From positions 1 to 34,263 of the forward strand of contig JAAYVC010000051.1 in NCBI GenBank assembly GCA_012517375.1: a DNA stretch of 34,263 nucleotides, written 5' to 3'. The stretch comes from a bacterium (GTDB taxonomy: Bacteria > Hydrothermota > Tepidihabitantia > B3-TA06). Each line of letters opens with the position of its first letter. The first letter of the stretch is position 1. Position numbers and translations under genes: made by a program. Positions 3,491 through 34,260 of the stretch are shown piece by piece. A model generated the notes under the pieces. The model had not been told where the DNA came from and did not search any database. It saw only the letters and a list, made by a program, of their open reading frames with translations.

Positions 3491-3931
3491 TCATTCGCTT
3501 TGTTCGCGCTTTCTTTTCAAAATCTCTTCTATTCTTTTTGAGTGAATGGAGTACTTTATCTTTCCTCCTCCCTTCATCTCCTCCCAGCTTATCGAATCTC
3601 GAGCAAGAAGGTCTGTGTTCTCACTGTTTAGAATGTCCATCCAGATCAAGACACGTTGGACAGACTGATTGCTCAACGCAAGAATCTCAAGAAGCGTTCT
3701 GTCCTGAATCTCAAAAATAGGCTCAAGCTGACGCCTCAGATTTTCCTTTCCTCCATTAAGAGACCAGTCGGAAAGAATAGTGACAAGAATATCACCGTCC
3801 GTTAACTCTATCCTTTCTTCTGTCTCTCTATGAATCCTGAAACCGAATTCCCTTAAAGCCGCAATCACGTCTCCGGTGGACGGTATGGTTTGTCCCTTAT
3901 CGCCCTCGACCCTCGTGTCAAGAGCGTTCAT
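3491..3931 (-). CDS. HicA-like-fold small protein, copy A
   Basis: 146 residues. Residues ~18-95 read STGDVIAALREFGFRI, then a DGDILVTI strand, then LRRQLEPIF, then VQRVLIWMDIL. That layout (helix, GF turn, DG strand pair, helix ending in IF, last helix with W) is shared with three other genes in this window (4744-5043, 12757-13038, 13039-13332). The first half resembles the alpha-beta-beta start of HicA/YcfA dsRBD-like proteins, but the HicA catalytic His (GSHH motif) is absent and no HicB gene is adjacent. This copy has a unique basic C-terminal tail (KRIEEILKRKREQSE). RBS AAAGGA precedes the ATG. Function unknown; HicA relationship is a pattern-level inference. Confidence 0.7.
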   Translation of the reverse strand: MNALDTRVEGDKGQTIPSTGDVIAALREFGFRIHRETEERIELTDGDILVTILSDWSLNGGKENLRRQLEPIFEIQDRTLLEILALSNQSVQRVLIWMDILNSENTDLLARDSISWEEMKGGGKIKYSIHSKRIEEILKRKREQSE

Positions 3932-4743: not shown

Positions 4744-5043
4744 CTAGTGTCCTCCGTTTATTTCTGATGCCCAGAAGGCAACTCGTTTAAGGGTTTCATC
4801 AAAGCGCTCCGAATCCATATCTTCTGTAAGTTCAGACACTTCCAATGCGTAGTAGGAGAAAATCTCATCGAGCTTGTCTTTGAGTTCTGATGCATCCTTG
4901 GTTGTTGTCTGGATTTTCGGCACATTGACCGTGTACGTACCGTCGCTCAATACCGTTGTTATGGGAGTTTCTTCGCCTGCGATGAATCCTATGCTTACAA
5001 GTGCAGCCACTATGTCGCTTGAGGGAGGTATCTTTGTCTTCAT
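4744..5043 (-). CDS. HicA-like-fold small protein, copy B
   Basis: 99 residues, the most compact family member on this strand. It reads PPSSDIVAALVSIGFIAG, then VLSDGTYTVNVPKI, then ELKDKLDEIFSYY and LKRVAFWASEI. The helix-GF turn-strand-'DG...VP'-helix pattern is that of HicA/YcfA-type small alpha/beta proteins, without the catalytic His. It shares the pattern with copies at 3491-3931, 12757-13038 and 13039-13332. The start is well fixed by a perfect GGAGGTGA six bases upstream. No antitoxin-like partner is seen. Function unknown. Confidence 0.75.
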   Translation of the reverse strand: MKTKIPPSSDIVAALVSIGFIAGEETPITTVLSDGTYTVNVPKIQTTTKDASELKDKLDEIFSYYALEVSELTEDMDSERFDETLKRVAFWASEINGGH

Positions 5044-12244: not shown

Positions 12245-12588
12245 AGCAGACTTAGAAAAAAAGAGCTAAAGAAGGAGAGAGCCGCTTATCCAACTTGCTT
12301 ATAAAACGCTAGGGAGCATGAACCTCCTGCAAACAGTAAGGATGAGCATATTATGTTATCAGATGCGCAAGCCTCTGCTGGTATCCAGGGAGCTAGAAAC
12401 TTCCGTCCGGCGGTTCGCAAGCGGTCGATACGTACCAGATCCCGGTTCATAACCAGATGGAACGATAAAGGCGAACCCCATTCCCTCTGCTGCAATCAGC
12501 TCTATGACAACTTCTTGCTCTTCCCTGTCCTACTTCTCGATGAACTCAATCCTACCCATCCCTGATGACGATGTCTTGATCATGGACA
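12245..12588 (+). repeat. 344-bp interspersed repeat, copy 1
   Basis: Nearly identical (about 95% by eye) to the reverse complement of 33918-34260. The two copies differ by scattered substitutions and three single-base indels. Those indels break every shared reading frame, so the repeat is probably not a protein gene today. No terminal inverted repeats or target duplication were seen. It may be a degenerate insertion element, a non-autonomous mobile repeat or a structured RNA. The rest of 12125-12756 holds only this repeat and the promoter at 12606-12633. Confidence 0.85.
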
Positions 12589-12756: not shown

Positions 12757-13038
12757 ATGTCACGTACTATAATGACTTGTGAACATATTATCAGCGCGCT
12801 TAAAAAACTAGGCTTTAGCATAACTCGAATAAATGAGAATTTGGTAAGCTTGCGCAAGGGAATTCACTATATCAGGGTTTCCCGCGGAGTTCTAAATCGT
12901 GAGCGTGAAATCCGAATGCGTTCGGAGCTCCCAGCCATATTCACTTATTTCAAAAAAAGAATCAATGCATCAAAGGACGTCAATCTTCATAAGGTCAGAT
13001 ATTGGCTGATGACCCCGAATTCATTCAAGGAAGCCTAG
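12757..13038 (+). CDS. HicA-like-fold small protein, copy C
   Basis: 93 residues. It reads MTCEHIISALKKLGFSITRI, then LVSLRKGIHYIRVSRGVL, then RSELPAIFTYF and LHKVRYWLMT. It shares with copies A, B and D the opening helix ending in GF, a strand pair, a helix ending in IF, and a closing helix with a V-x-x-W motif. The pattern resembles HicA/YcfA dsRBD-like proteins without the catalytic His. It is strongly basic (many Arg/Lys), so nucleic-acid binding is plausible. AAGGGAG precedes the ATG. Its stop codon abuts the ATG of copy D, so the two form one transcription unit. Confidence 0.75.
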   Translation: MSRTIMTCEHIISALKKLGFSITRINENLVSLRKGIHYIRVSRGVLNREREIRMRSELPAIFTYFKKRINASKDVNLHKVRYWLMTPNSFKEA

Positions 13039-13332
13039 ATGGTTCAAACAACTGTAACTGGTGATAATATTATCACTTCACTTAAACTTCTGGGATTCAC
13101 CGAAACCCCGGGAGATTCTCAAGCCGCAAATCAAGTCGTTCTGGTTAACGGAAAACACAAAATCTCAATTCCTAAGGGATGGCTTGAGGGAGCCGAGGCA
13201 ACCCGCTTGTACAACGAACTTCTCATCATATTCAAGGCATTCGAAAACGAAGTTCAAATGTCATCTGACCGCAACCTGCACGACGTTCGGGACTGGCTCG
13301 AAGCCAGAACCGCGAAGATTAGAAACGGTTAA
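13039..13332 (+). CDS. HicA-like-fold small protein, copy D
   Basis: 97 residues. It reads TVTGDNIITSLKLLGFTE, then VVLVNGKHKISIPKGWL, then LYNELLIIFKAFE and LHDVRDWLEAR. Closest in window to copy C: both end in a (N/R)LHxVRxWL helix. Its first codon follows directly on the stop of copy C, and AAGGA ~7 bp upstream supports the start. The 'NGKHKISIP' strand corresponds to the 'vtvP' strand of HicA but without the preceding GSHH. No antitoxin gene is adjacent; the next gene, 58 bp on, is a radical SAM protein. Function unknown. Confidence 0.75.
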   Translation: MVQTTVTGDNIITSLKLLGFTETPGDSQAANQVVLVNGKHKISIPKGWLEGAEATRLYNELLIIFKAFENEVQMSSDRNLHDVRDWLEARTAKIRNG

Positions 13333-14910: not shown

Positions 14911-15516
14911 ATGAACACCAATGAAGATAAGACTCTAGGCACAAATGCTACTCATGTATTAGCTTCATCAAGCCTCTCTTCTACTGCAACCAAAAAAATA
15001 AAGATAGGTTATAAAAGAACTTGCGAATGCGGCCCTACTCACATAAATTGTATGACCCCAAAAGAGTGGCTAAAAAGCCAGCTTGGGGTGTGGCAATTTA
15101 CATATGAATCAAGGGATGTCCGTGACAAGAAAATTCACCCTGCAACTTTTCCTATTTCTTTAGCAAGGAAAGTTATCGAATTATTTACTCACCAAGGGGA
15201 ACTAGTCTTAGATCCATTTGTAGGCAGCGGCACAACCTTAGTAGCCGCGCAAGATTGCAACCGCAATGCTGTCGGTTTTGATTTGCGAATACCACCCTAT
15301 ACTACCGAAAATGAACCGATAGAGATTTGTAACCACTGTGGACGAAGCGTCGCATGGGGTTCAGGTCGGTTTGTGAATCGAGTACCTGACCTTAACGACG
15401 CTGTGACAAGAATTGCAAACGGCCTCTTGTTCCCAGAAGGTGATTACGTGTGTGACGAATGCGACCAGATGACTTCTGATGATGCACCCCTCTATTCTTT
15501 GGGTAAAGAGAAATGA
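14911..15516 (+). CDS. Truncated/chimeric DNA methyltransferase with zinc-binding tail
   Basis: 201 residues. Residues ~50-125 are a DNA amino-methyltransferase segment: PKEWLKSQLGVWQF, then HPATFPISLARKVIELF (motif X region), then motif I LDPFVGSGTTLVAA (D101-T109) and VGFDL. The catalytic motif IV ((D/N/S)PPY) that follows in this arrangement is absent. After FDL the protein switches to a 75-residue tail with CNHC (140-143) and CDEC (181-184), a probable zinc site. RTCECG near residue 37 adds further Cys. An 'IPPY' at 127-130 is probably chance because it sits too close to motif I. It overlaps the next gene by ATGA. Catalytic activity is doubtful. Confidence 0.75.
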   Translation: MNTNEDKTLGTNATHVLASSSLSSTATKKIKIGYKRTCECGPTHINCMTPKEWLKSQLGVWQFTYESRDVRDKKIHPATFPISLARKVIELFTHQGELVLDPFVGSGTTLVAAQDCNRNAVGFDLRIPPYTTENEPIEICNHCGRSVAWGSGRFVNRVPDLNDAVTRIANGLLFPEGDYVCDECDQMTSDDAPLYSLGKEK

Positions 15517-16541
15517 GCACCTCCATATCAGAAAAAACTATCGAAGACATCCTTGCAGCAGATAAGGCTATTTTGGCCGAGATACTTTCACTTTCCGCAT
15601 CCGACTTAAGCCTGATTATAAGACAAAAGCAGTTGAAATCCGGAAAGCTCGATTTATTGTACTTGCATAAAACGGAACTTCTACTTATTGAGTTGAAGGT
15701 CGTTGCATTCTATCGAGGAATCTTGAAACAGATTAATGATTACTGCACAGACCTAATGGAGTTGCAAAGCCAAAATAGAATAATCAACGCAGACATCAGA
15801 AAAATCCTGCTGGTAACGAATGCCCGTCCAGCCGACATAGACCTTTGCCGAAGAGAACAAATCGAACTAATAGTTTACAAGCCGCAAGATATACTTGCGA
15901 AATTCTTTGAGAATTTCAAGCAGATGACTTACTTCCTGAGGATAGAATCAGCCGATTACGGGGTTACGTGGCTTCGCTTGCTAAAGCCAACTTTGGCATT
16001 GTTATCTAATGGCAACTCCATTGAACAAATATGTCAGTCGCTAAACAAATCTTCGAATACCATTAGAAACAGGCTATCAGTTGCGATGCGTTTGCAGTTG
16101 GTATCAAAATTTAAACATAAGTATTTCTTAACCGATTTGGGAAACGCCCTTTTGTCGAAAAGTAATTCTGAGGGTGAGGACGAATTTAATCAAGAGCAGA
16201 TAGATTTGTTAGCCGATTTCATCATGGAAAACCCTTTCTTTTCCACGGTGACGTTCACCATCTTCAGTATCATCGAGTCGGCTTTTGTGTTATCCAAGAG
16301 CATTTATCCGGTTCCATTTGAAAGGTTACGCGATTATTTTGTTGAACTGGTCGGAAAAGCAAGCACATGGAAAAAGGCAAAAGCCAGAGATACTGCCACG
16401 TATATATTCTCCAATTATGCCTGCGAGCTTCAATTCCTTTCTAAAGTCAACAATTACTTCTACCTAACACCGAGAGGCATCCGCGCCGTTCTCCTGTTAC
16501 AGTTAAACCGCTCTTTAAAACTTATCGAATCTCAGGGGTAG
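15513..16541 (+). CDS. PD-(D/E)XK nuclease-like protein with winged-helix domain
   Basis: 342 residues. The N-terminal domain carries a PD-(D/E)XK-like site: GKLDLLYLHKTELLLIELK gives D47, E60 and K62, followed by Q73 and a Tyr (KQINDY) as in RecB/Hjc-like nucleases. Residues ~165-210 form a helix-turn-helix (IEQICQSLNKSSNTIRNRL then YFLTDLGNALL), and the C-terminus ends in a second winged-helix-like segment (YFYLTPRGIRAVL). Start is fixed by ATGA overlap with the methyltransferase-like gene. Its last codon and TAG stop coincide with the start of a palindromic repeat, so the C-terminus may have been altered by that element. Role as a restriction or repair nuclease is inferred. Confidence 0.75.
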   Translation: MSTSISEKTIEDILAADKAILAEILSLSASDLSLIIRQKQLKSGKLDLLYLHKTELLLIELKVVAFYRGILKQINDYCTDLMELQSQNRIINADIRKILLVTNARPADIDLCRREQIELIVYKPQDILAKFFENFKQMTYFLRIESADYGVTWLRLLKPTLALLSNGNSIEQICQSLNKSSNTIRNRLSVAMRLQLVSKFKHKYFLTDLGNALLSKSNSEGEDEFNQEQIDLLADFIMENPFFSTVTFTIFSIIESAFVLSKSIYPVPFERLRDYFVELVGKASTWKKAKARDTATYIFSNYACELQFLSKVNNYFYLTPRGIRAVLLLQLNRSLKLIESQG

Positions 16542-16622
16542 GGGCCGACTTTGGCGTCTAAACGCCGCTTTGCGTAAGTCGGCCCGTTTCTCTCCGGGCT
16601 GACCTGAAGGTTAGCCCCTACG
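16538..16622. repeat. REP-like compound palindrome, copy 1
   Basis: The outer ends are GTAGGGGC and GCCCCTACG. Between them lie a large arm (GGCCGACTT...AAGTCGGCC, enclosing a GGCGTCTAAACGCC hairpin) and a second arm (GGGCTGACCTGAAGGTTAGCCC). The same ends and second arm occur at 19499-19563. It supplies the TAG stop of the preceding gene and abuts the truncated endonuclease. Confidence 0.8.
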
Positions 16623-16625
16623 CTA

Positions 16626-17198
16626 ATGCACGTAGAACCCTCCCCTCGCGCTTGTAAGTTTGTTCCATCCGTTTTGCTTCCGCTTTACGGTTGGAAGCAT
16701 CAGGAAGCCGGAACCAAATACCCCTCAAACGAAATGAGCTTTCGACAAACAATCAGTGGTGCATCACGATCTGACCGCGGGTTTACCGTTATCATCGATA
16801 GCAATGAACAAAAGGTCAAAATTTCATTTGATGCAAACGCCGTAAGCCAAAAACATGCTGATTGGTTGAAATCTGTAAAGAGAAGAATTGGACTTGAAGA
16901 GTTAAACCCTCAACCCTACTGGGGTTTCAGCGATCTTTTCCATAAGGCAGGAACGAAACTTAAGAATTGTTTCTACGTTAGGGCAGAAAGAAAAATCGTT
17001 GAGGGTTGCGAGTATTTTTGGTACAAAAACATCATGGTGTTAAGCAAGTTCAGCTTGGATAAATTCTTAGCAGCTTTAGAAAAGGGATTTGTTCTGGTGG
17101 ATTTTGATGCACGAACAGGTCATAATCATGGTACTAAATTTAGACTGCGGCAAGACAAACTATCAGAATTATATAGTGAAAATACGGTAGTCGATTAA
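16626..17198 (+). pseudogene. 5'-truncated MvaI/BcnI-like restriction endonuclease
   Basis: A 190-residue open frame. Its body matches the C-terminal two thirds of the MvaI/BcnI restriction endonuclease family as I know it: SFRQTISGASRSDRGFTVII, then KNCFYVRAERKIVEGCEYFWY, FSLDKFLAALEKG and a C-terminal DFDARTGHNHGTKFR motif (159-173). Family members are ~240-260 residues and carry the catalytic D-x-(E/H)-L-K near residue 50. That region is missing here, and a REP-like element sits where it should be. The ATG at 16626 has no ribosome site. It is most likely a non-functional remnant of a restriction-modification system with the upstream methyltransferase. Confidence 0.7.
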
Positions 17199-19498: not shown

Positions 19499-19563
19499 GT
19501 AGGGGCCGGTCTTTAGACCGGCCCGACTAGTTATCCGGGCCGACCTGAAGGTCGACCCCTACG
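19499..19563. repeat. REP-like compound palindrome, copy 2
   Basis: Same ends (GTAGGGGCC, CCCCTACG) as 16538-16622. The first arm is a perfect hairpin GGGCCGGTC-TTTA-GACCGGCCC; the second arm is GGGCCGACCTGAAGGTCGACCC. Copy 1 has a larger insert in its first arm. Confidence 0.8.
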
Positions 19564-33917: not shown

Positions 33918-34260
33918 TGTCCATGGTCAAGAGATTGTCATCAGGGATAGTAGGATTGAGTTCATCGAGAAGTAGGACAGGGAAGAGCAAGAAGTTATCA
34001 TAGAGCTGATTGCAGCAGAGGGAATGGGTTCGCCTTTATCGTTCCATCTGGTTATGAACCGGGATCTGGTACGTCTCGACCGCTTGCGAACCGCCGGGCG
34101 GAAGTTTCTAGCTCCCTGAATACCCGGAGAGGCTTGCGCATCTGATAACATAATATGCTCATCCTTACTGTTTGCAGGAGGTTCATGCTCCCTAGGGTTT
34201 TATAAGCAAGCTGGATAAGCGGCCTCTCTCCTTCTTTAGCTCTTTTTTTCTAAGTCTGCT
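33918..34260 (-). repeat. 344-bp interspersed repeat, copy 2 (inverted)
   Basis: Reverse complement of 12245-12588, about 95% identical by eye with three single-base indels. It ends 3 bp before the window edge, where the sequence already differs from the flank of copy 1, so the boundary is probably real. It lies upstream of the 32475-33806 gene without overlapping its promoter. No gene is supported here. Confidence 0.85.

Follow-up and report, generated by a model that had tools for sequence, protein, structure and literature searches.

A zinc-ribbon and NucS-like nuclease cassette in place of the centre of a MvaI/BcnI-type restriction-modification operon

Results and Discussion

The locus at positions 14911–17198 (+ strand) of the window, by which we mean the whole stretch of 34,263 nt of contig JAAYVC010000051.1 (GCA_012517375.1) that was analysed, is, to judge from its sequence, a broken methyltransferase-endonuclease (M-R) operon of the MvaI/BcnI kind, from which the predicted active sites of both the M and the R enzyme are absent and whose centre is occupied by a two-gene cassette. 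The reading that we favour, and consider probable, is that this cassette is most likely the working unit, probably related to defence, that the M and R pieces around it are recent debris, and that replacement took place at least twice, in separate lineages. The gain and loss of defence genes is commonly observed for whole units; here, instead, the core of one system would have been exchanged in situ for a defence-like nuclease cassette, apparently on more than one occasion, and this suggests that one defence-like gene can repeatedly take the place of another. Since both intact and half-way stages are found in relatives, the turnover of defence systems at one site becomes directly observable, and the locus points to a NucS-like nuclease family with a testable activity.

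Three open frames, here called ORF1, ORF2 and ORF3, lie on the + strand at the locus, and an aldehyde dehydrogenase gene is found downstream of it in the window. The features are the following:

14911..15285, + strand: 5' stump of the M gene, 125 codons, matching only positions 8–107 of the 294 of PDLC03363
15286..15516, + strand: coding stretch for a zinc ribbon (CNHC...CDEC), an in-frame fusion to the M stump and a separate gene in relatives
15513..16541, + strand: nuclease gene P2 (342 aa), with an N-terminal NucS/EndoMS-like PD-(D/E)XK domain and then a winged-helix region
16538..16621, + strand: GTAG-type REP dimer, two hairpins with GTAG...CTAC ends, fold z −5.0
16626..17198, + strand: 3' remnant of the MvaI/BcnI-family R gene (recognition/C-terminal part), matching PF15515 at 63–227 of 227, E 1.4e-35

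Remnants of the M and R Genes

The family matches at the locus are far beyond chance, with E values of 3e-53 and 1e-35. ORF1 (14911–15516) encodes 201 aa, and its match to the 294-aa methyltransferase family PDLC03363 stops at residue 126, directly past FDL; a match to PF01555 covers residues 28–125 (E 7e-21). The stump keeps the N-terminal CxCGPTHxNC region and the SAM-binding motif I (DPFVGSGTT to FDL), and the catalytic motif IV (TSPPY) is missing from the window protein (P0001) together with the remaining part of the N4/N6 methyltransferase domain. Motif IV is found in the intact relative P0007, which covers positions 9–284 of PDLC03363, and in G004, a genome of the same family, with whose M gene the DNA match of the window stops at about 15281. 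ORF3, of 190 aa, aligns with R.MvaI in its C-terminal part only and is 73% identical to residues ~73–257 of the intact R of G004. The N-terminal catalytic PD-(D/E)XK residues (ELK in relatives), which are intact in G004, are missing from ORF3, since both the open frame and the DNA homology start about 10 residues past ELK; for the active site of MvaI we assume the numbering based on K87, drawn from a review.

The original arrangement can be read from G004, which carries an intact M of 305 aa and an intact R of 260 aa separated by one nucleotide and followed by the aldehyde dehydrogenase gene that also lies downstream in the window (84% identical), the synteny being one-sided and confined to this downstream side. 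The halves missing from the window would meet, as shown by G004, where the cassette now sits. Among 147 genomes searched in the phylum, nine have a near full-length M, each adjoining a PF15515 gene on the same strand, in the order M-R at seven loci and R-M at two, and in one of the nine (G144) contig ends interrupt the R gene. With three further intact M-R pairs from the class of Candidatus Scalindua, a MvaI/BcnI-family R adjoins 12/12 intact M relatives in two phyla. The window stump and remnant belong to these R-M operons with PF15515 endonucleases and PDLC03363-type methyltransferases, of which G004 is an intact syntenic copy, and differ from them in having neither M motif IV nor the R catalytic region and in the two-gene cassette between. 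Most of the layout had been anticipated in an initial annotation of the window, namely the end of the M match past motif I with a CxxC...CxxC stretch behind it, the loss of the N-terminal catalytic region of the endonuclease, and, at the place where the missing halves would meet, a translationally coupled PD-(D/E)XK plus winged-helix gene with a REP-like palindrome; all of this was borne out, and its premise that intact relatives neighbour MvaI/BcnI endonucleases holds at every locus counted above.

The zinc-ribbon stretch that follows residue 126 of ORF1 is 57% identical to a separate 67-aa ORF of Candidatus Scalindua (L010:5790–5993), and a lone zinc-ribbon gene (MSQICNHCGRSV...) stands elsewhere in the genome of G002 (G002:C15). 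As it is a separate gene in both, the tail is not part of M; we discarded the alternative of a C-terminal domain native to this M family, because no intact M protein seen carries the tail. Comparison with these genes indicates that the CxxC...CxxC tail is a small gene minus its own start, now read from the start codon of M, and not foreign sequence grown on the methyltransferase. The 201-aa product is not a widespread full-length family. A scan of viral contigs with the M-Zn fusion protein returned no relative, and the search for the chimeric methyltransferase plus PD-(D/E)XK pair in other genomes found it in G002, with a fusion of 174 aa.

The Nuclease Gene

The start of ORF2 overlaps the stop of ORF1 in ATGA (AAATGAGC). 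Its homologues are 28–69% identical, and a zinc-ribbon partner is found upstream of some of them, not of all. The residues E11, D47, E60-L-K62, Q73 and Y77 are present in the window protein, and in the alignment E11, D47, E60, K62, Q73 and Y77 are conserved among the homologues that cover them, one homologue being masked at its start and another being without that region; the resulting pattern E...D...ExK...QxxxY we take to be RecB-like, as in NucS. Between G002 and G006 the dN/dS of the nuclease gene is 0.10. The nuclease domain occupies residues 1–130 and winged helices come after it, with matches to Csa3/CasR over residues 140–214.

What is said about the fold rests on a model of the N-terminal 136 residues, obtained from a two-sequence alignment (pLDDT 79.5, pTM 0.74), the model of the full-length nuclease being poor (pLDDT 46.8). 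The closest fold is that of EndoMS/NucS (Z 11.5, rmsd 2.9, 107 residues aligned), to which Foldseek also matched the domain model with E 2e-5; the second-best fold family is Shedu, with Z 8.1, and the NucS_C profile gave a best E of 0.011 among the members of the nuclease family. In NucS, however, the nuclease domain lies at the C-terminus (PMC8228993), behind an N-terminal DNA-binding domain, whereas that of ORF2 is N-terminal with the winged helices after it; ORF2 is, therefore, not a NucS, and its family is not named in the family libraries searched. Fold and residue conservation together lead us to predict nuclease activity for the cassette.

As for a role in defence, the PADLOC candidate-defence models PDC-S41 (best 1e-6) and PDC-S11 matched members of the nuclease family weakly, and with respect to named anti-phage defence systems the nuclease yields weak PADLOC matches only. 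Shedu (SduA), PDC-S41 and PDC-S11 have, like ORF2, PD-(D/E)XK nuclease domains, tied in their case to defence, although their matches to ORF2 are weak and its winged-helix C-terminal part is not common to them. The weak matches to PDC-S41 and PDC-S11, together with the company of R-M genes, suggest a defence role for the nuclease. Neither the scan of viral contigs with the nuclease alignment nor the search of phage records found a relative, and the plasmid search gave one distant match, in Halobaculum (27%). That homologue (L014, plasmid NZ_CP119991.1, 5992–7077) stands beside folE, queC, queE and queD-type genes, and its neighbourhood, which also holds a tRNA-guanine transglycosylase homologue, is possibly one of deazaguanine DNA modification.

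The REP Dimer

A double palindrome of 84 nt (16538–16621) occupies the space between ORF2 and ORF3 and folds as two hairpins; ORF2 owes its TAG stop to the GTAG end of this element, which abuts the R remnant. It resembles the GTAG-type REP dimers described previously in its GTAG termini, its hairpins, its dispersed copies and the TAG stop that it lends to a neighbouring gene, as such elements often do (PMC3733652). There is no essential difference from those elements. Because it directly adjoins truncated R genes in four genomes, it may mark a point of breakage. This form of REP occurs in 1–4 copies per genome in 8 genomes of the family, 7/8 of which have matches to a Y1 transposase. It is not specific to the cassette, and its dispersal led us to reject it as the unique boundary of a mobile unit and to drop the earlier view that it belongs to the unit.

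In G003 (G003:C82, L037:5918–6300) an unrelated gene ends in a partial REP, followed by a full REP dimer flush with an R remnant of about 74 codons, so that the same R family is truncated beside a REP without the nuclease cassette. In the window itself, a second, degenerate half of a GTAG REP element lies at 19537–19562, past the aldehyde dehydrogenase gene.

The Cassette in Related Genomes

In Candidatus Scalindua (L010) an M of 303 aa is followed by the 67-aa zinc-ribbon ORF, a nuclease 60% identical to ORF2 and an N-terminal remnant of R. This M keeps motif IV, its last ~16 residues being unlike those of other intact M proteins; the R remnant begins 9 nt past the nuclease stop, from about residue 21, contains an in-frame TGA, and is followed by a fragment of another methyltransferase. 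At L010:7023–7643 the remnant is joined to this second fragment (PDLC03305 91–243), and it is the C-terminal part of the PDLC03305 family that matches MvaI-type R. The cassette is older than the M-Zn fusion. The initial annotation had pictured one replacement creating a new two-gene unit; as the zinc ribbon and the nuclease are already two separate genes in Scalindua, beside a nearly complete M and a cut R, this is not supported.

In G002 the 174-aa M-Zn fusion is followed, in the order seen in the window, by the nuclease, a REP and an R remnant, and this locus lies elsewhere in the chromosome than that of the window. M is broken after codon 125 in the window and at about codon 111 in G002, and R starts at about residue 73 in the window, 90 in G002, 187 in G003 and 200 in G006. 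In the last genome the nuclease gene itself lacks its beginning (present from residue 88 on) and is followed by a REP and then about 60 codons of R. G185 has a nuclease 32% identical to ORF2 and then an R remnant that starts near the same residue as in Scalindua and bears a one-base frameshift. What follows the nuclease in G207 is a different kind of methyltransferase frame (L051:9270–10514), which lacks a usual start codon close to its beginning and is apparently 5'-truncated. Altogether, an R or M gene without its 5' end lies 3' of the nuclease in 6/8 nuclease loci, and no R-M genes were found near the nuclease homologues of G153 and of the Halobaculum plasmid.

One Event or Several

The main rival to our reading is a single old insertion with later erosion, that is, plain decay, in which a common ancestor acquired the cassette between its M and R genes, ordinary deletions ate outward from it, and the nuclease was a bystander with no functional takeover. 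The graded erosion across genomes would follow naturally from such a course, as would the nearly alike nuclease-R junctions of Scalindua and G185 (R from about residue 21), each with a nonsense codon or frameshift in the remnant, and the position of the REP, which in three genomes coincides with the stop of the nuclease gene as though the two had been inherited together. However, the R and M pieces of G002 group with the intact G004 and not with the window, being 85% and 82% identical in amino acids to the former and 75% and 79% to the latter. A DNA tree forcing the window and G002 together was rejected for R (AU p 0.026) and for M+R (0.031) but not for M alone (0.49); protein trees pointed in the same direction, non-significantly (AU p 0.34 for M and 0.098 for R). 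Moreover, at the DNA level G002 and G006 share 83% identity in the nuclease gene and 70% in the R piece, so the histories of the cassette and of R differ. Given also that the remnants look fresh, we regard decay from one old insertion as unlikely, though it deserves some weight, and the single event of the initial annotation gives way, on the different breakpoints of G002 and its grouping with G004 (AU p about 0.03), to replacements that we infer to be independent in at least two lineages.

The freshness of the remnants needs some care. Where intact relatives are invariant, the M and R remnants of the window and of G002 have accumulated no excess change, the window R differing at 2.7% of such positions, against 2.7–24% for intact copies left out singly, and M at 0.6%; this conservation fits recent truncation or continued use alike. 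The dN/dS against the window is saturated and uninformative on selection acting on the remnants. The R pieces of G006 and G003 are too short for an enzyme (57–74 codons) and yet have a low dN/dS, which favours recency.

Continued use would be expected if the fragments had been repurposed, with the M stump-Zn fusion and the R recognition domain serving a new three-protein module as regulatory components that bind DNA or SAM. Two different in-frame M-Zn fusions exist, and the window R piece is open over 190 codons with its invariant positions kept; nevertheless, such a module appears improbable, given the shortness of the R pieces in G006 and G003, the stop codon within the 5' part of the G002 piece, which speaks for debris, and the lack of a clear ribosome-binding site ahead of the R piece, as judged by eye. 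The differing fusion points also fit a leader better than a domain.

A Possible Mechanism

In the reading that we prefer, of replacement with recent debris, the gene structure, breakpoints, synteny and fold of the nuclease domain are direct results, and activity, defence role, partner role and timing are what we infer from them. The centre of a type II R-M operon, in which an N4/N6-family M is followed directly by a MvaI/BcnI-family R, would have given way to two genes, one for a small protein with a zinc ribbon and the other for a nuclease that begins with a NucS-like PD-(D/E)XK domain and continues into winged helices. Since no other unit at the locus has an intact predicted active site, this cassette is most likely the working part. 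The M stump was probably kept because it provides the zinc-ribbon protein with a promoter, a start codon and a reading frame, and would likewise serve the nuclease by way of the ATGA overlap, while the R piece and the REP dimer would amount to debris and a terminator-like flank. We would expect the nuclease to bind DNA by its winged helices and to cleave it, as a stand-alone defence enzyme partnered by the zinc-ribbon protein.

A bolder idea, to which we attach little probability, is that the zinc ribbon and the NucS-like nuclease form a mobile cassette that inserts again and again, and by preference, into R-M operons and puts them out of action, perhaps in a homing-like manner; in the homing-like variant the nuclease would cut intact R-M alleles, the cassette would be copied into the break, and the target would be a competing defence system. 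Alternatively, the nuclease might be a new restriction enzyme that stepped in for R under the protection of the existing M, as in a Scalindua-like stage, M being lost later. Scalindua does combine an M with catalytic motifs, a dead R and an intact nuclease, but the M of the window and of G002 cannot work, which should be lethal in the case of a classical R-M nuclease, and yet the nuclease gene is open there with its motif residues kept; besides, homologues without M nearby exist (L052 and the Halobaculum plasmid), and we hold this last alternative to be very unlikely.

Other Features of the Window

Small look-alike ORFs of the LGF...VRDWL type are found at 12757–13035, 13039–13332, 3494–3931 and 4747–5043; two of them stand in tandem upstream of the locus, and they are perhaps a paralogous small-protein family. 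Finally, nearly identical ORF-like stretches (MLSDAQAS.GIQGARNFRPAVRKRS...) lie in opposite orientation at 12353–12562 (+) and 33930–34151 (−), and this pair is a repeated DNA element of about 200 bases.
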